A program made the translations under genes and the position numbers. Below the pieces are notes generated by a model that was given only the letters and a program-made list of their open reading frames with translations, had not been told where the DNA came from and made no database searches. From a virus, in IMG/VR virus record IMGVR_UViG_3300002242_000273, positions 5,797 through 29,091 of that record: 23,295 nt of DNA. The stretch is one strand, 5' to 3'. Of this stretch, positions 1-23,295 are shown piece after piece. Numbering within the stretch: the stretch's first letter is position 1; each line of letters opens with the position of its first letter.

Positions 1-416
1 GCTATTAGTTGTTGTTTAATATTTTCTTGAGAAGTTGCTTTGTCTTTTTCTAAACCAAATAAAGCTTCTGCTTTATCAATTCTTGTTTTCTCTGTAGCTT
101 CATTAACTGCTCCTGAGATTTGTCCTATACCAGCCGCAAGTGTTCTTGCATCACCTTCTTGTAGTGCTTGTATACCAGCAGTTGCAGCTTGGTTTGTTTG
201 TCTATATTGTTCGTTAAATGCATCTAATGGAACTTGTAGTTTTGCGTATACATCTTTCTGTGCATTTTTTCGAGCTTCTGCCATTAGCCTATCAGCTTTT
301 TTTTGTGCATCTGCCGCTTGTTTAGATGCTTTTGCGGACTGACCGAAAGACATTAAACCGCCACCAAGTGCTGTTGCTGCTCCGACTCCTGCCGCCATTG
401 TAGTAAATGCTGCCAT
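1..416 (-). CDS. Probable DNA-ejection / internal virion protein, 3' end cut by window edge
   Basis: An open frame runs from ATG at 416 to the left edge without a stop, giving the first 138 residues. It begins MAAFTTMAAGVGAATALGGG, a small-residue, glycine-zipper-like segment of about 25 residues. After that comes a long Ala/Lys/Glu/Gln-rich region with helix-favouring composition. This layout, a membrane-active start followed by long helices, is typical of podovirus ejection or internal core proteins such as T7 gp14 and P22 gp7/gp20. The start is supported by its junction: the preceding gene's TAA at 418-420 is one base from this ATG (TAATATG), as at other junctions here. The function is inferred from composition and position downstream of the tail genes. 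A tail-associated helical protein is the alternative. Confidence 0.75.
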   Translation of the reverse strand, partial: MAAFTTMAAGVGAATALGGGLMSFGQSAKASKQAADAQKKADRLMAEARKNAQKDVYAKLQVPLDAFNEQYRQTNQAATAGIQALQEGDARTLAAGIGQISGAVNEATEKTRIDKAEALFGLEKDKATSQENIKQQLI

Positions 417-10760: not shown

Positions 10761-12227
10761 TTAAGCATCTTGGAATAAGAAGAAGTTGTTTGCACCTAAA
10801 GTACATACAGCTCTCTCACTCAAGAAGTTTACTTCCATCGCATCTAAGTCAGAAGTTCTTGCTCCACCAGCAGAACCAGTGATCCAAGTTTTATATCTTC
10901 TGTCTTCAGTTTCGGAAGCTCTATATCTTACATGTAAGAATGGTCTCTTAGCGTTTTTACCTAAGATTTGATCGTATACTGTAGTAGAACCAGCAGGGAC
11001 TAATAGTCCATTTACTTTTCCACCTACGATACCACCTCTCATTGTAGGATCGTTTAGATATTTCCAGTCTGACTTGTAGAAGTCATAGCCTCTCCTGAAT
11101 CCAGTGAATCCAAGATTAAGAGCCATTTCTTCATCATTGTCAAATAAACCATATGATGTACCACCAGCTCCATAAGAGTTCTGAGCAGCTAACATATCAT
11201 CTATGTCAAATGAGAAGTTTCTGTTTAAGAAAATTACATTTTCTTCAATAGAACCTTGCTTGTCTAATCTTGAAATAATAGAGTCAAAGTCAGCTAATGT
11301 TGCTGGATTACCTCCACCATATACATTACCTCTTGCTCCTACTACGAAGAAGATACCATCAGAACCATTAAGGTTTGCCGCAGACGCACCAGCTCCAACT
11401 CCTTGTAAGAAGTCACCAGCACCAGAACCTGCTTCTGCAGGAACTGCTTCAATCATTGCAGTTTCTAAGTAATCTTCGAATCTTAGTCTTGTTTCGTGTT
11501 CAGACTTTAGATACCATAAATATCCAGATGCTCCATTTTCTGAAGTAACTTCAATCCATCCGATTTGAGCCATATCAGAACCAGATACATTGTATTTGTC
11601 CTTGATAATAATTGGCTTGTTGTCAAAGATGAAGTCATCAGCTTCAAGAGAACCTACCATTCCATTAGTTCCTTTGTTAAATTCAGAACCATATACGAAA
11701 ATATCACAAGCTACTCCCGCCGCTACTGCTTGGCCTCCAGCCTCATAGTAAGCGATAGTTACTTGGTTTACTGCGTTACCACCAGAACCTGGTCCAACAG
11801 TTACAATTCCTTTATTACTGAGGTTTGAACCTGCAGTTCTATCAGAAATCATTACAGTTTGTCCAACTCTAAGTGCTGCAGAATTTGGTGTTCCAGCTAA
11901 TGCAGGGTTAAAGTTAGAGATGTTGTTAGGTACTGTCCATACTCCAGTAAGTGCTGCTGCTGCTGCACCTGAAGTACAAGATTGATATTTAACGTGTAAT
12001 CTTCCTTGCTCTGCCCATTTAATAAGGTCAGAGTTAGAAGGCATTTCAGCTCCTACCATTCTTAGGAAGGATGCTATAGATCGATTGCCATATCTTTCAA
12101 ACTCTTTTTCAAATGTATCAGGTAAATACTGATTCAAGAAATTGAAGTCTGTAATATAATTTGTAGAAAGCGGTACTTGCTGACTACTTGGTTGCAAATC
12201 AAAACCAGGGGCTACATTTACTGCCAT
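10761..12227 (-). CDS. Major capsid protein (488 aa)
   Basis: Position immediately after the scaffold gene, length near 490 aa and the sequence pattern fit a crAss-like HK97-fold capsid protein. The N-terminal part (DFNFLNQYLPDTFEKEFERYGNR at about 27-49, then SIASFLRMVGAEMPSNSD) looks like the N-arm and first helices. About 95-185 is a Gly/Ala-rich beta insertion (RVGQTVMISD, QVTIAYYEAGG). The region around 225-265 has WIEVTSENG then LRFEDYLETAMIEA, suggesting the spine helix. About 325-400 holds YGLFDNDEEMALNLGFTGFRRGYDFYKSDW. Codon use differs from the neighbours, with many TTC, AAC, GAC, TAC and AAG, as expected for the most abundant virion protein. A strong terminator follows. Confidence 0.85.
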   Translation of the reverse strand: MAVNVAPGFDLQPSSQQVPLSTNYITDFNFLNQYLPDTFEKEFERYGNRSIASFLRMVGAEMPSNSDLIKWAEQGRLHVKYQSCTSGAAAAALTGVWTVPNNISNFNPALAGTPNSAALRVGQTVMISDRTAGSNLSNKGIVTVGPGSGGNAVNQVTIAYYEAGGQAVAAGVACDIFVYGSEFNKGTNGMVGSLEADDFIFDNKPIIIKDKYNVSGSDMAQIGWIEVTSENGASGYLWYLKSEHETRLRFEDYLETAMIEAVPAEAGSGAGDFLQGVGAGASAANLNGSDGIFFVVGARGNVYGGGNPATLADFDSIISRLDKQGSIEENVIFLNRNFSFDIDDMLAAQNSYGAGGTSYGLFDNDEEMALNLGFTGFRRGYDFYKSDWKYLNDPTMRGGIVGGKVNGLLVPAGSTTVYDQILGKNAKRPFLHVRYRASETEDRRYKTWITGSAGGARTSDLDAMEVNFLSERAVCTLGANNFFLFQDA

Positions 12228-13432: not shown

Positions 13433-15868
13433 CTATCTTGGATCGAACTCTGCCAAGTCAAAACCATCTAAACTATCTTCGTTTGATTCAAAATTTACTG
13501 GTGGTAAATCTCTTTTTTTCTGTTCTATCATTTTAGATGTCTGTGTAGATTGTTGACTAATTCGTTGAGATTTTCCTTCTTCCTTAGCATCTTCTCTAAC
13601 ATCAATAGCTTTTTGTTCCATTCCTTTTAGTTGCATATTATATTGAAACTCTTCCGCCATTAATGCTAATTTAAGTTCTTTCTCTGCAGTCAGCTTTTGT
13701 ATTTCATAACCAATTTTAGCTTGTTCAATTGCTATTTTGCCTTCAGTTTCCATTTTTTGTTTTTGCATTGCAATCTCTGCTGCAGCTTGTTGTTGTTGCA
13801 TAGCTTGTTGGGCCTGCATTTGTTGAGCCTGCATTTGTTGAGCTTGTTCAGCTTCTTGTTTTTTCTTTCTCTTAACTTTTAACAACTGATTAGCCATTTT
13901 AATATTATGTATTTCCCTAATATCAATTGCGTCTTCCAAGCTTATATTTTCTTTAGACAATGCCATTTGAATATTTTGTTCAAGCATTGCTTTTTGTTCT
14001 TCATCAGGAGCAAGTTCTATAAAAACTCCAAAATCATAAATGTATAAATCTTTAATATCTTCTAATATTGCAAGATTATATTTACCTATTTGCATTGCAA
14101 ATTCATCTTTGAAGTCTGCATATTTAAGAATATCTGCAGTTCTAATTGTTAAACATTCAGCCATTCTTCTCGCAATAAATAAACTTGCATCTAAAATATG
14201 TCTTGTTGCTACATTTGAATTTAATGCTGCTAACTTTTGAACACCAACTAATGAATTAGGATCTGGACTTGAGCCATCTCTTGCTTCATTTAAACCTGTT
14301 ACTGTTCTAATCATGTCTAAATAATGATTATAATTACCAATTAACATTTGTAACTTACCAGCTCCTGTGTTAGAATTTAACTGTTGAATAGGAACTCGTG
14401 CATTATTAAATTCACCATCACCAGTGTAACTTCTACCCACAACACTACCAGTTTGAAAATACAATCGTAATGCATCTTCAGGGTTATATGCTTGACCTGT
14501 ACCTAAATCTACTTCATTTAATCCATCGGCATCAATAAATACACCATCTGGTACAACTCTTGATACTACTTGTTGAATTTTTAAATGAGTCATTTGAATT
14601 AAATCAGCAAAAGGAATCATTCTTCTAACTAAAGATTCATGTGTTCCTTTATACATTCTTGGAGCACAAGCTACATAATTAGGCATTGCAAACTGATTAG
14701 AAGATTTTGGTCTCACCATATTTTCCATCATGTGCCACTGCAGAACAATGTTTGTACCCATAACCATTACCCCTTCATACCATACATCAATCTTTTTTTC
14801 CACTCTTTCAAAATTACCTTCTTTCATCATTTCTTCAGGTGGATTAAACTCATCAGTTTTTTCTACAGTTTTAAAAGTACCATCTTCCATTCTTTTCTTT
14901 TTGTAAACAAATGAATTAGTGCTTTTATAATTAAAATACATGAGTGTTGCAGTATCTCTATACAACATACTGTTTTCATACATTTGTGCAGTTTGATAGT
15001 AATTATACCATGACTGACTATATTTAGATATTTCTTCTAAATCTTCATTAGTAAGTGTAGGATCAATTTTAATAAGCTCAGTTATTGGAACTGTTTTAAT
15101 TTCACCCCAATAAAAACAATCTTTAAAATAAGGATCTTCAGTGTAACTGTATACAACATTTACTGGATCAACATAATCTACTTTTACTCCTTGACCAGGT
15201 AGAAACTCATGTTTAGCCATACCTACTCCTAAAGTAGCCATATCATAATCAATTCTTTTACGAACATCATCATAATGATTTTCTGCCAACAAAGTGTTGA
15301 CTGCTTCTTCACAAGCTATTTCTATTGCTGGTTTATACTTTAAGTTCATGAACAACTCAAGTTCTTCTCCTGATTCAGGCAATTCTTCTTCAGGCACATT
15401 AAATACATCAATACCAAAGTCTTGAGTCATTTGAGATAATATTGGTTTAGCCAACATATCTTCTTCAACCATATCTTGAAATTTACTTCTTTTTTCTGCA
15501 GACATTGCGTCTTGAGCATATGTTTTTACTTTAAACATTCTGTCTTGCATTCCATTAACAACAATATCAATAAATTTAGGAATAATTGGAACTGGTGTCC
15601 AATCTAAGTTTAGATAAGATAAATCTCCATCTATAGCTAATTCGTTTTTATATTTAGCAATAGACTGTTCACCACGAGCATAGAGTCTTAATTTATTAAA
15701 CTCTGCCCATTGGCTATAAAATCTACAAGTGTTGCTATCTCTACGAAACCATTCGTATTGAATTGCTTGTCCCACCTGTAGCCCATACTCTACTGTAGCT
15801 TTTTCGGAATCAGAAACAAATTGATCTGGAAATGCAGCAGCCTTAATATCTATATTTACCTTCTTCAT
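13433..15868 (-). CDS. Portal protein (811 aa)
   Basis: This gene follows the large terminase with a 4-base ATGA overlap and has the length of crAss-like portals. Typical portal features are an N-terminal region with QWAEFNKLRLYARGEQ (about 53-68), VPIIPKFIDIVVNGMQDRMF (about 93-112), a core with KVDYVDPVNVVYSYTEDPYF (about 226-245), and a long helical stretch with MIRTVTGLNEARDGSSPDPNSLVGVQ followed by TRHILDASLF. The portal forms the twelve-fold DNA channel and binds the terminase. The C-terminal 150 residues are unusual: a Gln/Ala/Met-rich coiled coil (about 665-705, partly encoded by a 15-base repeat), further charged helix, and an acidic tail ending DLAEFDPR. That tail could face the capsid interior or act as a barrel extension. 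Confidence 0.85.
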   Translation of the reverse strand: MKKVNIDIKAAAFPDQFVSDSEKATVEYGLQVGQAIQYEWFRRDSNTCRFYSQWAEFNKLRLYARGEQSIAKYKNELAIDGDLSYLNLDWTPVPIIPKFIDIVVNGMQDRMFKVKTYAQDAMSAEKRSKFQDMVEEDMLAKPILSQMTQDFGIDVFNVPEEELPESGEELELFMNLKYKPAIEIACEEAVNTLLAENHYDDVRKRIDYDMATLGVGMAKHEFLPGQGVKVDYVDPVNVVYSYTEDPYFKDCFYWGEIKTVPITELIKIDPTLTNEDLEEISKYSQSWYNYYQTAQMYENSMLYRDTATLMYFNYKSTNSFVYKKKRMEDGTFKTVEKTDEFNPPEEMMKEGNFERVEKKIDVWYEGVMVMGTNIVLQWHMMENMVRPKSSNQFAMPNYVACAPRMYKGTHESLVRRMIPFADLIQMTHLKIQQVVSRVVPDGVFIDADGLNEVDLGTGQAYNPEDALRLYFQTGSVVGRSYTGDGEFNNARVPIQQLNSNTGAGKLQMLIGNYNHYLDMIRTVTGLNEARDGSSPDPNSLVGVQKLAALNSNVATRHILDASLFIARRMAECLTIRTADILKYADFKDEFAMQIGKYNLAILEDIKDLYIYDFGVFIELAPDEEQKAMLEQNIQMALSKENISLEDAIDIREIHNIKMANQLLKVKRKKKQEAEQAQQMQAQQMQAQQAMQQQQAAAEIAMQKQKMETEGKIAIEQAKIGYEIQKLTAEKELKLALMAEEFQYNMQLKGMEQKAIDVREDAKEEGKSQRISQQSTQTSKMIEQKKRDLPPVNFESNEDSLDGFDLAEFDPR
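13812..13841. repeat. Two tandem 15-base repeats in the portal gene
   Basis: The 15-base unit GCCTGCATTTGTTGA (plus strand) occurs twice without interruption, flanked by near-copies rich in TTGTTG. On the coding strand it encodes a five-residue Gln/Met/Ala repeat in the portal's C-terminal coiled coil. Such tracts can change copy number by slippage. Confidence 0.85.
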
Positions 15869-18141
15869 CTATTAAGTAATTGACTTACTGAACTTTTGTT
15901 GTTATACCTTGCAAAGTTAATGCTAATTTTTGACTTTTCTTTTGTCGGGGTATATAAGTGTTTTTGATTTGCCATAATGGCCAAACCAGTGCTTATTGCT
16001 GCATCAAACTTGGTTCTATTGCTTATATCAAACTTAGCCCAATCTTCTAATGTTCTTTGAAAATACATCATACCCATATCATCTTTTTCTCTAAATGTAC
16101 CCTCCATATCTAAGCCAATGTATTTTTCTATATAAGATTCAATTGCAGATGCATGAGCTTGTTTAACATCTTCAGATGTGTTGGGTATACCTCCTAATTC
16201 TCTTTCTGTTTTAGATAATTTATTAAATGTTTTATCTGGTCTATTTAAGCTAAAACCTCTATATCCTCTGTTTTTAAAATGATATAATAAACGAGGTTTA
16301 TTATTTTCAACCAATATTGGCATACCATAAAAAACACATGCCATTAATACTTCTTCAAAAAATATTTCTGCAGTTTGTGGTCTTGCTATATATTCTAAAA
16401 AAAAATGATTACTTGGCCACTCATCCATATTAAATTTAGTCAAACCATGTAATGCTCCATTAGAACCACTACCCACAGTAACTCCTGAAATATCATATGA
16501 GTCACAACCAAACGAACCTAAATGTTCATTACCAGGAATTTTTTTACCATTCTTTGTAATAACATTATTTTGTTGTTCAGGTTTAGGTACATAAGATACA
16601 AAAAATCTACCTCTTGAATTTGGAGTCCATATTACTTTACTATCTTTTATACCATCCTTCCAATGAAAACTTCCTTGAACCATATGATGTTTAATAATTA
16701 AAGAATCGTTATAATCAATTTGTTGATATAGTTTTGTTAAATTAAATAATGATTGTTTACTTTCATCTCTAAATGCATGGGATTCAGTACGAGGAAATTG
16801 CCTATAAAATTCATTTAAAGCATCAGGATCAATAGCTAATGACTCTACTTCATTTTCCCAATAATCAATTGCTCCTTGATAAATATTTTCTCCATCTATT
16901 CCATCCACATATGTGCTGGGATTTCTTAAAACTGGCATACCATATTTATCTATGAAGCCTTCCATGTTCCATTCCATAGGAACAAATAAATTATATAAAC
17001 CACTCTTGGTTTGTCCATTAGCATTTCTTTTAGAAGGATCGGAATCATAAAATAATTGTTTAAAATTATTACCTCCTTTGTCTAATGCATTAGAGGTAGA
17101 ACCCATCATGCATTTACCAATAATTTTACTTCCTAATCTTAAACAAGTTTTAGTAACCCTCCAATTGTTTAAAATATTTTCAGGTTTTTCCCATTTACCA
17201 CTTTCATCATGTAATAGTAATTGTAGTTTTTCTCCATCATAACTATTGTCAGAAGTATTTTTCCAGTCAATTGTAGTGTCTAAACCTTCTAACTCTTCTT
17301 CACCCATATCATACATGTTTTTCTTAGTTATCTTAGAAGCTGGTACACGATAGGCTAATTCGGTTTTTGGTTTATCCATACCATCTTGAATGGGTTTAAA
17401 AAAGAAAGGATAATTATTAGAGATTGGAACAACTTTATCAGTAAACATTTTTTTTGCATCTGATCCTGTTTTAGATAATATACCGATTCTGGAATCTTTA
17501 GATATAGTAGCAGTATTAACTCCCTCACAAGAACTCATAAAAGAAAATCCTGAACGCCTTATTTTTAAATAACACATTCCGAAACTTCTTTTATCTAATT
17601 TAGATGCCTCCCAATATATATAAAATATACGATTAGCTTCTCTAAAATCAGGGTGACCTACATCAATTTTAGTCCATTGCAAATACATGTAATGTGTGCC
17701 TGTAATATAAGTTGGAACACCATTGTTTAAAAACCAGTGACCTTGCTCTCTTTTATTAAATTCATTTTCTACAAAATCAATCCATCTATTTTTAAAGTTT
17801 GGAGGTGCTTCATGCCACTGAAATATTGTTTGTACTCTTTTAAGTTCTTTAGGATAATCTAATGCTTTCCAAAACTGTTGTGACTTTTCTTTTTTAGAAC
17901 TTAATTTAGGTGTAGAAGGAAGAGCTATTTTAACATAGTTAATATCATAGATGTCACCTATAGTTCCATCTTGAGATATAACTACTATATCATACTTTTC
18001 ATTATACCCTGGTTGCCATGCTCGAGCTTTATTTTTTCGAGACATAACATTTTTTGGAACAACATCTTTTATGATAGTATATAAACTACCTGGATCTTGA
18101 TTCTGCAAATCCTTGAGGGCCTTTTGTTTTTTTAACTTCAT
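15865..18141 (-). CDS. terL: Terminase large subunit (758 aa)
   Basis: This is the DNA-packaging motor. YITGTHYMYLQW (145-156) and YLKIRRSGFSFMSS (191-204) are hallmarks of the crAss-like terminase ATPase. The Walker A-like stretch has Phe199 where the family lysine usually stands. Walker B is LQLLLHDE (306-313, Asp312-Glu313). The C-terminal RNase H-like nuclease follows, with Asp547 in GCDSYD, an acidic residue near 612 (VENN) and Asp713 in KFDAAISTGLA as likely metal ligands. The ATG at 18141 gives a 56-base overlap with the upstream gene. ATG at 18045 (Met33) would leave a 40-base gap and is the alternative start. Its stop overlaps the portal start by 4 bases. By analogy it assembles on the portal and cuts concatemeric DNA. 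Confidence 0.9.
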   Translation of the reverse strand: MKLKKQKALKDLQNQDPGSLYTIIKDVVPKNVMSRKNKARAWQPGYNEKYDIVVISQDGTIGDIYDINYVKIALPSTPKLSSKKEKSQQFWKALDYPKELKRVQTIFQWHEAPPNFKNRWIDFVENEFNKREQGHWFLNNGVPTYITGTHYMYLQWTKIDVGHPDFREANRIFYIYWEASKLDKRSFGMCYLKIRRSGFSFMSSCEGVNTATISKDSRIGILSKTGSDAKKMFTDKVVPISNNYPFFFKPIQDGMDKPKTELAYRVPASKITKKNMYDMGEEELEGLDTTIDWKNTSDNSYDGEKLQLLLHDESGKWEKPENILNNWRVTKTCLRLGSKIIGKCMMGSTSNALDKGGNNFKQLFYDSDPSKRNANGQTKSGLYNLFVPMEWNMEGFIDKYGMPVLRNPSTYVDGIDGENIYQGAIDYWENEVESLAIDPDALNEFYRQFPRTESHAFRDESKQSLFNLTKLYQQIDYNDSLIIKHHMVQGSFHWKDGIKDSKVIWTPNSRGRFFVSYVPKPEQQNNVITKNGKKIPGNEHLGSFGCDSYDISGVTVGSGSNGALHGLTKFNMDEWPSNHFFLEYIARPQTAEIFFEEVLMACVFYGMPILVENNKPRLLYHFKNRGYRGFSLNRPDKTFNKLSKTERELGGIPNTSEDVKQAHASAIESYIEKYIGLDMEGTFREKDDMGMMYFQRTLEDWAKFDISNRTKFDAAISTGLAIMANQKHLYTPTKEKSKISINFARYNNKSSVSQLLNR

Positions 18142-18361
18142 TACCTTCTAATAATAACTTTTCATCTTCAATTCTTTTGAGTATTTCAAAAGCATCAAAA
18201 ATAGCTAACTTTTTTGTAGCCGCAGCATTTTTTAATCTATCTGCAGCTAATTCATCCTCGGGATCTGGTTTGATTATTTCTTCTTTTGCAACTCTAATAA
18301 GTTGCCTTACAGCTTTTTCTCCTGCATTTATAATTTGTAACTTAATATCTTTTATATCCAT
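18086..18361 (-). CDS. Candidate small terminase subunit (91 aa)
   Basis: This short, largely helical, charged protein (LQIINAGEKAVRQLIRVAKE at about 8-27, then ELAADRLKNAAATKKLAIFD at about 37-56) lies directly upstream of the large terminase and overlaps it by 56 bases. Position, size and helical composition fit a small terminase subunit, which recognises viral DNA and regulates the motor. No helix-turn-helix is clear, and other short terminase-adjacent proteins exist, so this is inference. It starts in a TAATATG junction after the 187-aa gene. Confidence 0.6.
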   Translation of the reverse strand: MDIKDIKLQIINAGEKAVRQLIRVAKEEIIKPDPEDELAADRLKNAAATKKLAIFDAFEILKRIEDEKLLLEGNEVKKTKGPQGFAESRSR

Positions 18362-18362
18362 A

Positions 18363-18926
18363 TTAAAGTTTTAATGTTATATGTGAAGTAAACATTCTGT
18401 ATAACACTTCGTTATCAATTATAAATTCATATTCACTATCAGGTAGATAAGCAATTTCATCACCCACTTCTAAACCCAACTCTTCAAGCTCTTTGTTAAT
18501 ATATTTTATTACACCAATTAAAGGCTCTATGCTTCCTCCTTTTTCTATAAAACTTTCTTTTTTTTCCGAAGGTTTTACAAAACAATATTTATCGTGTCCT
18601 CTCCATTCCTCATCTCTTTTATACAAAAAAAACTGATCAGGATCAACTAAAAAAAGATTATCTCTAAAATGACTTTTGCCACTTTTTCTTCTACCATACA
18701 TGTCATTATAAAATTTAAACACATTGTGATGAACAACTAAAACATCTCCTTTTTTTATTTCACCTTTATATCCTAATGGTGTAGCTTTTACTGTAGCAAA
18801 TCTATTAGAGGCTTTATGATCTTCTTCAGATGTGCTTGTTATAAAATCTACTTCACCTATTTTTTTTATATTGTTATACCTTCGGTCATTGATAGGTGTA
18901 ACTAAAAAAGAATAAGGGGACTTCAT
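18363..18926 (-). CDS. Tandem GroES-like co-chaperonin candidate (187 aa)
   Basis: Both halves show the GroES (Cpn10) pattern. In the first (about 1-105), FLVTPINDRR resembles the GroES start IRPLHDRV, ITSTSEEDHKASN resembles the mobile loop that contacts GroEL, and RFATVKATP then EIKKGDVLVVHHN match the R-G-x-V and V-K-V-G-D-x-V segments. In the second (about 113-187), IEPLIGVIKY, LEVGDEIAYLPDSEYE and IDNEVLYRM match the same segments and the GroES stretch KIDNEEVLIM. A phage co-chaperonin (T4 gp31 is the classic case) lets host GroEL fold the capsid protein, which fits a gene in the packaging cluster. The duplicated fold is unusual. The call is by eye and needs structure prediction; a non-chaperone beta-barrel protein is the alternative. 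Confidence 0.55.
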   Translation of the reverse strand: MKSPYSFLVTPINDRRYNNIKKIGEVDFITSTSEEDHKASNRFATVKATPLGYKGEIKKGDVLVVHHNVFKFYNDMYGRRKSGKSHFRDNLFLVDPDQFFLYKRDEEWRGHDKYCFVKPSEKKESFIEKGGSIEPLIGVIKYINKELEELGLEVGDEIAYLPDSEYEFIIDNEVLYRMFTSHITLKL

Positions 18927-19144
18927 TAAAAGTGTATATTGTATTCTAAAGAGATAGGCATTGTAGTTTTAAACTCTTTCCAAAGTAATACTTCTTCATT
19001 TCGTATTATCCAAATTTTATATGCCGAGTTTTCTTCCTGTATGAGATGAATAACATATTTACCACCCAAGACATCTTGACCGACAATGTAATGCATTGCA
19101 CCAGACTTATAGTCTGCTCCTATAGAAATTTTTCGTATATCCAT
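18926..19144 (-). CDS. Unknown small protein (72 aa)
   Basis: The sequence alternates hydrophobic and polar residues in short strands (HYIVGQDVLG, YVIHLIQEE, YKIWIIRNEEVLLWKEF), suggesting a small beta-sheet protein. It has no membrane segment or recognised motif. Its stop overlaps the start of the tandem GroES-like gene by one base (TAATG) and it starts 4 bases after the 174-aa gene, so it belongs to the same operon. No function can be assigned. Confidence 0.7.
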   Translation of the reverse strand: MDIRKISIGADYKSGAMHYIVGQDVLGGKYVIHLIQEENSAYKIWIIRNEEVLLWKEFKTTMPISLEYNIHF

Positions 19145-21212: not shown

Positions 21213-23295
21213 TTAGTTATGTTTTAGTTGTTTCTTTACTTCTTCCAACTCTTTTGACAAGTCTTTTATTGCTTCTACAAGTAAAGGTACAACCTTCGCA
21301 TAATCAACAGTTTTATAACCATCACCGATAGGTGCTTCTTTTATTATTTCAGGTAATACAGCTTCTACTTGTTGAGCTGATAACCCAACTTTTTTATCTG
21401 CTTCGTAACCATATTCTTGTGCTTTTTCGTTAGCAGTGTAATAGAAACCATTAAGTTGTTTTACTTTGTTTAAAGCATCTGGTATATTTCCTTGAATATC
21501 TTTTAATCTTTCATCTGAATAGTAAGCTACAATGTCTCCAGCAACTCTAATAGAGTCTCCAGTTGAGTTTCCATCAAAATAATAGTTTGTGTTTGCAGAG
21601 TCATAGAGTATTGGAGATCTTAAATCTGCATTTGAATTAATTGTACTTGCTGCATATATATCTCCACTAAATTGAATCTGTGCTCCTGAACAAGTCATTC
21701 TTGCACTATAGTCTGCTGTTGAAGAATTGCTATCATGCCAGTCTATATATTTACCAGCTTCTACTACACCAGCACTACTTACATATAATGCTTTACTCCA
21801 CCAACTTCCTGAACTTCCAATATTTAAAGAAAGAGTTCCACTTGAAGTAATTGTGCCACCAGTAAGCCCAGTGCCTGTTGCTACACTTGTAACAGTTCCT
21901 GATGTAGAAGAAGAACCAGTTGCTCCTGTTGTTACAGCAGTTACTCTACCATAAGCATCTATAGTAATATTATCTATCTTAGTGCCATTAGATGTAGAAC
22001 CATAAGTTCCTGATCCAATTCCACCAGTTGCCATATTAAGTGTAACTGATCCACTCGTACCACCCCCTGTTAGGTTTGTTCCAGCAGTTACTGCAGTAAT
22101 ATCTCCTGAATTACTTGTATATCCAGCATTGTTGTTAAATGTAGATATGTTTATATTACCTGGTGCTATTTTATATTGTGTACCACTACTGTTTACTACT
22201 GCAAAGAAATCTGCATTACCAGCAGTTGTTGTTGTTGATAAACCATTTAAGTTTAGTGATAAAGTTCCAGTAGATGTAATAGTACCTCCTGTTAATCCAG
22301 TTCCTGTTGCAACTGAAGTTACTCCAGAAGATGTAACATATCTTCCATCAAGATCAACTGTTAAGCTACTAAGACCTGATCTACCTAAAGTTAATACTCC
22401 AGTACCAGTGGCAAATGATAAACTATTTGCATAATAATTTGTGTTTGTATCTGTTGAAGTAATTGTAATAGTATCTCCACTTCTTGAAGTAGAAGTTCCT
22501 CCTCCTCCAGTAATAGTTAATGTATCATTATTACTATTAGCTGTTGCAGTACCACTTTGTGTAGCTATGTTTTTATATATAGCTTGACTTGAACCTTTAT
22601 CGGAATTAGTTATTGTAACAGTACCTGAAGTTCCTCCACCTGATATTCCTGAACCAGCAGTTACACCAGTTATATCTCCACTGTTTGTAGTATATCCACT
22701 ATCATTAGTCCACTGAGAAATATTACCGCTTTTATTAGTAAATGTTTGAGTATTACTTGCTGTAGTAGTTCCAGTGTTAGTAGTGTATCCAGAATCATTA
22801 GTCCACTGAGAAATATTACCTGATTTATTTGTAAATGTCTGAGTATTAGAAGCAGTAGTTGTACCAGTGTTTGTGGTATAACCAGCTCCATTTGTTAACT
22901 GGCTGTTATTAGTTATTTCGTTGTTAATAGTAATAGTATCACCAGAACGAGCAGTATTAATATTTGTACCTCCAGCTATATCTATAGTATCATTGTTACT
23001 ATTAGCTACCGCAGTACCACCATTGTCGGCAGTAAAGTTTTTGTATATGTATTGTGAAGAACCTCTATCTGAGTTTGTAATTGTTACTGATCCTGAAGTT
23101 CCACCCCCACTTATACCTGTTCCAGCACTAACTGCTGTTATGTCTCCTTGTGGTACAGCGAATGAAGTTGATAGTGTACCCCCATCTTGTTGTGTTAAAG
23201 TTAAAGTAACTGTAGATGAACCACTGTCACTAAAACCAGTTATCATATTGTCATATGCAGAATTAGACTCTGTTGAGCCACCACCCGACCAAGTA
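21213..23295 (-). CDS. Repeat-rich tail fibre with C-terminal S74 chaperone, 5' end cut by window edge
   Basis: The frame stays open from the stop at 21213 through the right edge. The ATG at 23246 is internal, because codons upstream of it still encode fibre-like sequence (TWSGGGSTESNSAYDN). Counting from that Met, about 34-109 and 190-264 are copies of one Gly/Ser/Thr-rich module (GDITAVSAGTGISGGGTSG, later SNNDT and RSGDTITI). About 115-188 holds 31-residue repeats (SQWTNDSGYTTN, TFTNKSGN), and VATGTGLTGGTIT occurs twice further on. This is the beta-stranded shaft of a trimeric fibre. From Ser577 the sequence SDERLKDIQGN, VGLSAQQVEAVLPEI, KTVDYAKVVPLLVEAIK and a final coiled coil form a full-length S74 chaperone. 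It should cut itself at Tyr576-Ser577 after trimerisation. Role: receptor recognition. Confidence 0.85.
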   Translation of the reverse strand, partial: TWSGGGSTESNSAYDNMITGFSDSGSSTVTLTLTQQDGGTLSTSFAVPQGDITAVSAGTGISGGGTSGSVTITNSDRGSSQYIYKNFTADNGGTAVANSNNDTIDIAGGTNINTARSGDTITINNEITNNSQLTNGAGYTTNTGTTTASNTQTFTNKSGNISQWTNDSGYTTNTGTTTASNTQTFTNKSGNISQWTNDSGYTTNSGDITGVTAGSGISGGGTSGTVTITNSDKGSSQAIYKNIATQSGTATANSNNDTLTITGGGGTSTSRSGDTITITSTDTNTNYYANSLSFATGTGVLTLGRSGLSSLTVDLDGRYVTSSGVTSVATGTGLTGGTITSTGTLSLNLNGLSTTTTAGNADFFAVVNSSGTQYKIAPGNINISTFNNNAGYTSNSGDITAVTAGTNLTGGGTSGSVTLNMATGGIGSGTYGSTSNGTKIDNITIDAYGRVTAVTTGATGSSSTSGTVTSVATGTGLTGGTITSSGTLSLNIGSSGSWWSKALYVSSAGVVEAGKYIDWHDSNSSTADYSARMTCSGAQIQFSGDIYAASTINSNADLRSPILYDSANTNYYFDGNSTGDSIRVAGDIVAYYSDERLKDIQGNIPDALNKVKQLNGFYYTANEKAQEYGYEADKKVGLSAQQVEAVLPEIIKEAPIGDGYKTVDYAKVVPLLVEAIKDLSKELEEVKKQLKHN
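22455..23147. repeat. Duplicated 75-residue fibre module (22455-22679 and 22920-23147)
   Basis: Two stretches of about 225 bases encode the same module: GDIT, SGGGTSG, VTITNSD, GSSQ, IYKN, SNNDT, RSGDTITI. They flank the 93-base repeats. The copies are clearly alike in protein but have diverged in DNA, so they are older than the 93-base units. Confidence 0.8.
22682..22915. repeat. 93-base tandem repeat in the tail fibre gene
   Basis: Two full units (22682-22774 and 22775-22867) and a partial third (from 22868) have a period of exactly 93 bases, or 31 codons. The two full units share blocks such as GTCCACTGAGAAATATTACC at 22708 and 22801. The period keeps the reading frame, so copy-number change would lengthen or shorten the shaft. 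Confidence 0.9.

Follow-up and report, generated by a model that had tools for sequence, protein, structure and literature searches.

A predicted tandem GroES gene upstream of the terminase gene

The window, the whole 23,295-nucleotide stretch of viral DNA analyzed here, carries a run of genes encoding in order a 72-residue protein, a predicted tandem GroES-fold protein, a 91-residue protein, the large subunit of terminase, a portal protein, a 375-residue protein, and a candidate capsid protein. In the list of open reading frames the tandem gene is read on the minus strand, from 18926 to 18363, and the plus strand across the same interval is full of stop codons. The features that enter into the discussion are the following.

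18363..18926, minus strand: 187-residue predicted tandem GroES-fold protein, PHROG 13932, stop codon included (open reading frame, profile, and model)
18609..18926, minus strand: predicted N-terminal GroES-fold half, residues 1–106 (model of the half alone and hhalign)
18366..18608, minus strand: predicted C-terminal GroES-fold half, residues 107–187 (VIA, hhalign, and PF00166 in relatives)
18804..18857, minus strand: putative mobile loop of the N-half, residues 24–41, with DFI at 27–29 (low pLDDT and loop alignment)
18738..18758, minus strand: first G-D segment, IKKGDVL, residues 57–63 (sequence and alignment A2)
18453..18473, minus strand: second G-D segment, LEVGDEI, residues 152–158 (sequence and alignment A2)
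18393..18419, minus strand: IDNEVLYRM, residues 170–178, counterpart of IDNEEVLIM in GroES (comparison with E. coli GroES)
18926..19144, minus strand: conserved 72-residue small protein directly upstream, overlapping the start of the tandem gene by one base
18086..18361, minus strand: 91-residue protein between the tandem gene and the terminase gene, candidate small terminase subunit
15865..18141, minus strand: large terminase subunit (phrog_6681, E 1e-174)
10761..12227, minus strand: 488-residue virion protein, candidate major capsid protein and candidate client (phrog_13704, E 1.7e-97)

The first-pass annotation had placed the tandem gene in a packaging operon, and its surroundings agree with this, as it lies one small gene upstream of the gene for the large terminase subunit. 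We collected 201 loci containing the tandem gene, some of them the same contig fetched twice, and dropped four with fewer than 900 bases of downstream sequence; the large terminase subunit is found downstream of the tandem gene in all of the 197 assessable loci, in 154 of them the terminase match starts within 700 bases, and the greatest distance among the others is 1871 bases. The family phrog_13704 is one of virion structural proteins, and the Calle_1 protein at the position corresponding to the 488-residue product is annotated as the major capsid protein.

Family searches with the 72- and 91-residue proteins give nothing above chance. Small proteins that by eye resemble the 72-residue product occupy the equivalent position in Elemovirus, Calle, Panino, and MW202828, the likeness consisting of RKIS or RKIT near the start, LWK or IWK, and EY near the end. 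The 91-residue protein is possibly the small terminase subunit; it has a counterpart in MW202828 and a similarly sized protein in phi18:3, and there is no such gene in Elemovirus, Calle, and Panino. The terminases of the latter three are about 120 residues longer, and we considered whether the 91-codon gene corresponds to their additional N-terminus, but no similarity was found on comparison. Elsewhere in the window, the 677-residue product of a minus-strand gene at 21213–23246 contains a Peptidase_S74 chaperone of endosialidase domain at residues 577–634 (E 9.3e-10).

Predicted fold of the whole protein and of its halves

Alignment A2 consists of the window protein together with 85 of the 88 representatives obtained at 90% identity; the window protein stands in for L002, which is identical to it, and L081 and L083 were excluded. 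Two segments of the form V/I-x-K/V-G-D-x-V had been noticed in the protein at the outset; they are present as IKKGDVL and LEVGDEI, and because their G-D residues are conserved at 95–97% across the 86 members of A2 (G60 97%, D61 97%, G155 95%, and D156 96%) they are not chance occurrences. A resemblance of IDNEVLYRM (residues 170–178) to a stretch of GroES had also been pointed out, and it holds when E. coli GroES is translated from its own locus, the KIDNEEVLIM of that protein pairing with IIDNEVLYRM of the window protein. As a separate observation, the motif HHN at residues 66–68 of the N-half is invariant in A2 (86 of 86 members), and phi18:3 keeps the N alone, the HH being absent; metal binding is one guess as to its role.

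AlphaFold2 run on A2 predicts a succession of strands, the two halves being joined by a linker a few residues long (pLDDT 86.4, pTM 0.78). With this model, a Foldseek search of the PDB gives 7ekq_R as the best match (E 5.6e-5) and the sole one at an E of 0.001 or better; in VIA the two align over 158 residues with a Z of 10.7 and an rmsd of 4.5, residues 1..187 of the model lying on 11..193. Chain R of 7ekq is named 'Cpn20 co-chaperonin subunit' in the PDB listing and is the Cpn20 of Chlamydomonas, a solved tandem co-chaperonin. In the viral structure library the match is to the phi18:3 'Chaperonin cpn10' (E 9.2e-13, 200 columns). The fold is not settled by sequence alone, because phmmer with the window protein found nothing among the PDB sequences and the A2 profile reaches GroES at an E of 0.09, no better. 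By prediction, the protein would thus consist of two GroES barrels arranged head to tail in one chain. The dehydrogenase-type GroES-like domain was considered and rejected on the grounds of its lower Z in VIA than the Cpn10-type chains listed.

Two GroES folds in tandem were what the first-pass annotation had claimed, and it had called for a structure prediction with each half compared to GroES and gp31. The claim stands as a model: in addition to the full-length match with Cpn20, each half is separately GroES-like, the C-half by fold and by profile, and the N-half with moderate structural scores and a weak profile link. The C-half aligns in VIA with chains of single GroES and gp31 at Z values from 9.3 to 6.8. 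The N-half was folded alone from alignment A3, a manual selection that kept 53 of the 86 A2 sequences for brevity, and gave a pLDDT of 85.0; its Foldseek ranks 1–14 are all Cpn10-type chains (best E 6.3e-3 and TM-score 0.51, with none at 0.001), and so are ranks 1–15 in VIA, with Z from 7.4 to 5.4, followed by a dehydrogenase at 4.7. Since the tool warns that a Z of 7.4 can be due to chance, this value is weak alone, and the moderate weight that we give to the N-half lies on the uniformity of the top ranks together with the full-length match to Cpn20.

In hhalign comparisons with a reference set combining single phage GroES proteins and E. coli GroES, the profile of the C-half has a prob of 95.5 and that of the N-half 61.9. 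With 200 column-permuted profiles for each half the best values are 5.0 (C-half) and 2.9 (N-half), none of the 200 reaching the real score, and nine unrelated window proteins used as controls all have a prob < 1. The N-half value of 62 is reached only when Pachyviridae, Panino, and other distant members are added, and global alignment gives 3.7; the narrower-family N-half profile yields 1.6 against single phage GroES and 4.7 against E. coli GroES. The N-half of phi18:3 alone has a prob of 80.9 against the single GroES set, the best permuted value being 4.0. Comparison of the N-half with the C-half by profile is below detection in hhalign (prob 3.1 and 4.0), and internal duplication is therefore a structural conclusion, not a sequence one.

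The first half had been credited with a mobile loop at residues 30–41, which coincides with the least confident block of the model (residues 31–40, mean pLDDT 59). There are 30 residues between strands 7–11 and 42–48 of the N-half, with two short strands within, and just 11 between strands 114–121 and 133–142 of the C-half, where the mobile loop is absent from the window protein. The N-half loop aligns with GLIL of Elemovirus and GLEL of phi18:3, and hhalign pairs the N-half loop TESGLELHAD of phi18:3 with TESGLLLSAQ of the single phage GroES at locus L201; the loop cores as judged by eye are DFI in the window, LIL in Elemovirus, VEF in Panino, MAV in Calle, and LEL in phi18:3. By alignment and model the N-half thus appears to keep a mobile loop of the GroES type, which would make the contact to GroEL. 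Because a longer C-half loop is present in phi18:3 and Calle, we infer that the window and Elemovirus lineages probably lost it secondarily, and because the second half has lost its mobile loop in the window lineage the two halves are not equivalent.

Family members and their chaperonin genes

The window protein has a full-length match to PHROG 13932, 'co-chaperonin GroES' (E 1.4e-18, residues 1–181 of 187 on profile positions 1–193 of 200), and searches of Pfam and NCBIfam with it give no match. PF00166 matches 66 of the 86 members of A2 at E values up to 10 (best 2.2e-6), the window protein not among them; with a cut-off of 21.1 bits, phi18:3 scores 32.6 and Calle 28.0, both matches lying inside the C-half, and none of four N-halves run separately is matched. 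That PF00166 matches the C-half in the positions read may be the reason why the first domain went unremarked.

Relatives of the window protein are numerous in IMG/VR, with 542 confirmed in one scan and at least 590 in a second, and 80 from each, forming overlapping sets, were kept. There are also 15 on genome contigs, all titled MAG, and 77 in phage records, whose organism names are Flavobacterium (68), Cellulophaga (7), Maribacter (1), and Caudoviricetes (1); a scan with the Panino protein found no relative in viral_contigs. Several of the records already label the relative as 'co-chaperonin GroES' or 'chaperonin cpn10', and it is hypothetical in phi38:1 and MW202828; the double nature is absent from the annotations that name GroES or cpn10. 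Product gp096 of phi18:3 belongs to the same family and has the same pre-terminase position as the window protein (hhalign prob 98.4, 183 columns), but differs from it in having long loops in both halves and in belonging to a phage without a detectable GroEL; the phi18:3 record labels it by similarity, including to PF00166, with the match in the C-half.

Viral chaperonins in virioplankton have reportedly been described by Marine et al. 2017. In the accessible text of three sources, GroEL is reported in the wider phage group from 36 environmental genomes (PMC5332604), the core genes of the Pervagoviridae include a cpn10 (PMC8776804), and Panino is said to carry GroEL and GroES homologues (PMC11590407); that same text makes no mention of a tandem in a phage, and our literature search, which covered open-access articles in PMC, found no paper on a phage tandem GroES. 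While PHROG 13932 itself is known and annotated, its double architecture, its pairing with a single GroES, and its likeness to Cpn20 appear to be unremarked in the searchable literature.

We searched 38 carrier records of at least 38 kb, 37 of them hand-picked and the other being L008 (L163 was excluded as a duplicate of Calle_1). Cpn60 is found in 28, a separate short-frame Cpn10 in 30, and all three genes in 28; the frames of the single Cpn10 are of 79–111 residues, or 83–91 where the gene was read, an ordinary GroES being of about 85 residues. Among carriers of at least 57 kb, 21 of 22 have the double and the single GroES together with a diverged GroEL, although the 57-kb cut was chosen after the data had been seen and the records are partly close relatives (with at least three Elemovirus types and two Callevirus), so that the counts are not independent. 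Cpn60 was not detected in ten of the 38: nine records of less than 57 kb, and G026 (L227, 72.8 kb), the sole exception among the longer ones, in which the single and the double were both found. Eight of the 38 carry the double only, and in each of them the sequence stops no more than 10.8 kb upstream of the tandem gene. We considered whether these eight had lost the single GroES and rejected this, truncation being likely, as the single gene of the window's group lies mostly 9–18 kb upstream of the tandem gene. Neither partner was found in L008, whose contig extends just 726 bases upstream of the tandem gene, and neither GroEL nor a single GroES was detected in the window's own record, a 29,091-base fragment.

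The tandem and single GroES genes are typically 6–18 kb apart. They are on the same strand in the window's group, and on opposite strands in phi38:1, Calle, and Elemovirus; in phi38:1, with products numbered as in record KC821614, groEL (gp005) and the single cpn10 (gp007) lie near the DNA polymerase gene, and the gene for the tandem (gp089) lies among the virion genes, on the other strand. A terminase search returned 87 phage records, ten beyond those of the tandem search and representing five phages with two records each, of which one record each was examined. Four of these, phi18:3, phi19:3, phi46:3, and phi13:2 (Pachyviridae), have a 200-codon, tandem-sized 'cpn10' at the same place and a single Cpn10 elsewhere, with no match to Cpn60; the fifth, Gundel_1, has the same terminase but no match to Cpn60 or Cpn10, and its pre-terminase place holds a 312-base gene only. 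Since no Cpn60 is detected in them, the four Pachyviridae would presumably need the GroEL of their host. Single and double occur together in 26 of 26 long carriers (the 22 of at least 57 kb and the four Pachyviridae) and GroEL in 21 of the 26, and the lids without a detected Cpn60 (G026, W04, W06, W07, and W08) suggest that the chaperonin has been lost or gained while the lids stay.

Relatives of the phage GroEL at an E of 1e-10 are present in 258 of 50,697 phage records, including 68 under the host label Flavobacterium BAL314 and 4 under Cellulophaga HaHa_2_95, which equal the numbers of double carriers under those labels; this association is confounded by shared ancestry, and for many carriers of GroEL, among them phages of Vibrio, the searches turned up no tandem protein. 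In an alignment of 24 phage GroELs, from which the near-duplicates L219 and L222 were excluded, the proteins are 32–39% identical to E. coli GroEL, and D87, D398, K51, and D52 are kept in all 24; apical positions differ. We note that at apical L234, a position of importance in E. coli for the binding of both GroES and substrate, 19 of the 24 (loci L201–L226) have an E, possibly a co-adaptation with the phage lids.

The phi18:3 record has an experimental MS/MS structural label on 12 gene products, and on neither gp096 (the double) nor gp080 (the single). On this basis we rejected the tandem as a virion protein, with non-detection counting as weak evidence. According to the accessible part of PMC13288928, mass spectrometry of infected cells and of virion preparations identified methylated proteins, and the GroEL of phi38:1 is listed among them under another gene number. 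The MS/MS labels, the gene placement, and the phage GroEL data together favor a non-virion assembly factor. The first-pass annotation had envisaged a gp31-like protein that simply replaces GroES on the host GroEL; this part of it does not fit the genomes, as most of the long carrier records encode their own GroEL and a separate single GroES. Because the phages also encode an ordinary GroES, and mostly a GroEL, we take the double to be a second co-chaperonin and not a plain substitute for GroES.

A proposed chaperonin lid and its known counterparts

It seems somewhat more probable than not that late in infection the tandem protein forms part of a group I chaperonin lid and contributes to the folding of virion proteins, most likely within a mixed lid of seven domains formed together with the single GroES. 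This proposal is based on the predicted fold, conservation, the pre-terminase position, and the presence in the same genomes of a single GroES and, in most cases, a GroEL, from which we infer GroEL binding, lid function, timing, mixing, and client. Tandem chains would supply part of the lid, the capsid protein would be the likeliest of the virion proteins folded, and the partner chaperonin would be made by the phage in most relatives and by the host in some. In the likeliest assembly, the seven GroES domains would be shared between doubles and the single GroES of the phage, matching the chloroplast arrangement of three doubles with one single; we propose a mixed lid because the phages carry the same kinds of parts as the mixed lid of the chloroplast. 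More tentatively, and with appreciably less confidence, a lid of three tandem chains and one single on the phage GroEL may have arisen independently of that in chloroplasts, and phages with the two genes on opposite strands could shift from an all-single to a mixed lid, retuning the chamber for the capsid protein. Several findings count against a lid: the window protein has no Pfam or NCBIfam match, its N-half match is moderate, and its C-half loop is lost; the gene sits with the terminase and away from the single GroES, ten of the 38 records are without a detected Cpn60, and the invariant HHN of A2 has no explanation in a lid.

The doubles could also be sufficient by themselves, as plant and Plasmodium Cpn20 can be, a ring of four chains (eight domains) or three (six) capping GroEL despite the mismatch in symmetry, with the single GroES forming a separate and earlier lid. 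Cpn20 homo-oligomers are active and lids of six and eight domains work according to the accessible text of PMC4242682 and PMC5780408, and such a difference in timing fits the arrangement in phi38:1, where the single lies with groEL close to the DNA polymerase gene and the double is on the other strand among the virion genes. However, we regard this as unlikely, as a purely separate role would not need the pairing of single and double that is seen in 26 of 26 long carriers, even those without a detected GroEL, and the two genes share a strand in the window's group. The strict placement before the terminase in 197 of 197 assessable loci, far from the single GroES gene, would be accounted for if the GroES fold had been co-opted for packaging or head assembly, for example as a helper of terminase or portal, and no longer served as a chaperonin lid; the loss of the second mobile loop, the invariant HHN in the N-half of A2, and the presence of the tandem in phages without a detectable GroEL would also be in keeping with this. 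Such a role is nonetheless improbable in our view, given that the N-half loop is kept, with at least two hydrophobic core residues in all five lineages compared, that the proteomics annotation of phi18:3 gives the protein no virion label, and that the single GroES accompanies the tandem in all 26 long carriers. We favor the mixed lid.

What appears to be new here is the double architecture, as a variant for phages within a known family. A chaperonin and both single and double lid subunits are encoded in one genome of about 60–75 kb, and other lineages have lids without a detectable chaperonin; Elemovirus and the Cellulophaga phages thus provide a compact and culturable system for asking what a tandem lid does, and whether particular clients, such as capsid proteins, shape the evolution of lids.

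With bacterial GroES the protein shares the predicted fold of each half, the putative mobile loop of the first half, and the conserved G-D and IDNE stretches; it differs in that GroES is a single domain (97 residues in E. coli), and in the lack of a Pfam profile match for the window protein. The gp31 protein of T4 is a single domain that acts on the host GroEL. It is likewise a phage co-chaperonin with a GroES fold (1g31_A has a VIA Z of 6.8 on the C-half and 6.4 on the N-half), but the window protein is by prediction a tandem, and its relatives usually have a phage GroEL. The phage chaperonins EL gp146, OBP gp246, and AR9 gp228 are, according to the accessible part of PMC9598537, GroEL relatives that need no co-chaperonin. 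Unlike these phages, those described here carry Cpn10 genes alongside GroEL.

Double-domain co-chaperonins are known from plastids, and how mixed or even-numbered lids fit a seven-fold chaperonin is a long-discussed question of symmetry. The architectural parallel with Cpn20 that had been drawn from the first inspection is upheld at the level of the predicted model by the full-length match at a Z of 10.7. In common with chloroplast Cpn20 and Cpn23, the phage protein would have two GroES folds head to tail in about 190 residues, and in the long records it too is encoded beside a single Cpn10 and mostly a Cpn60; it differs from Cpn20 (7ekq_R, 14% identity) in its location in a packaging operon and, in the window, in a second half without a mobile loop. 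Proteins of the Cpn20 type are plastid proteins and the phage gene lies beside those for terminase and portal, so that its product is built like Cpn20 without being a member. The PDB listing for 7ekq gives one Cpn11, one Cpn23, and two Cpn20 chains, that is one single and three doubles with seven domains, and as the entry is by title a ClpP complex it shows this composition and not a lid on Cpn60. In the accessible text of PMC4242682 and PMC5780408, mixed lids are built from Cpn10 and Cpn20 in plants and algae, obligatorily so in Chlamydomonas, and lids of six and eight domains also work. The gene set of these Bacteroidota phages suggests a viral version of the chloroplast mixed lid.
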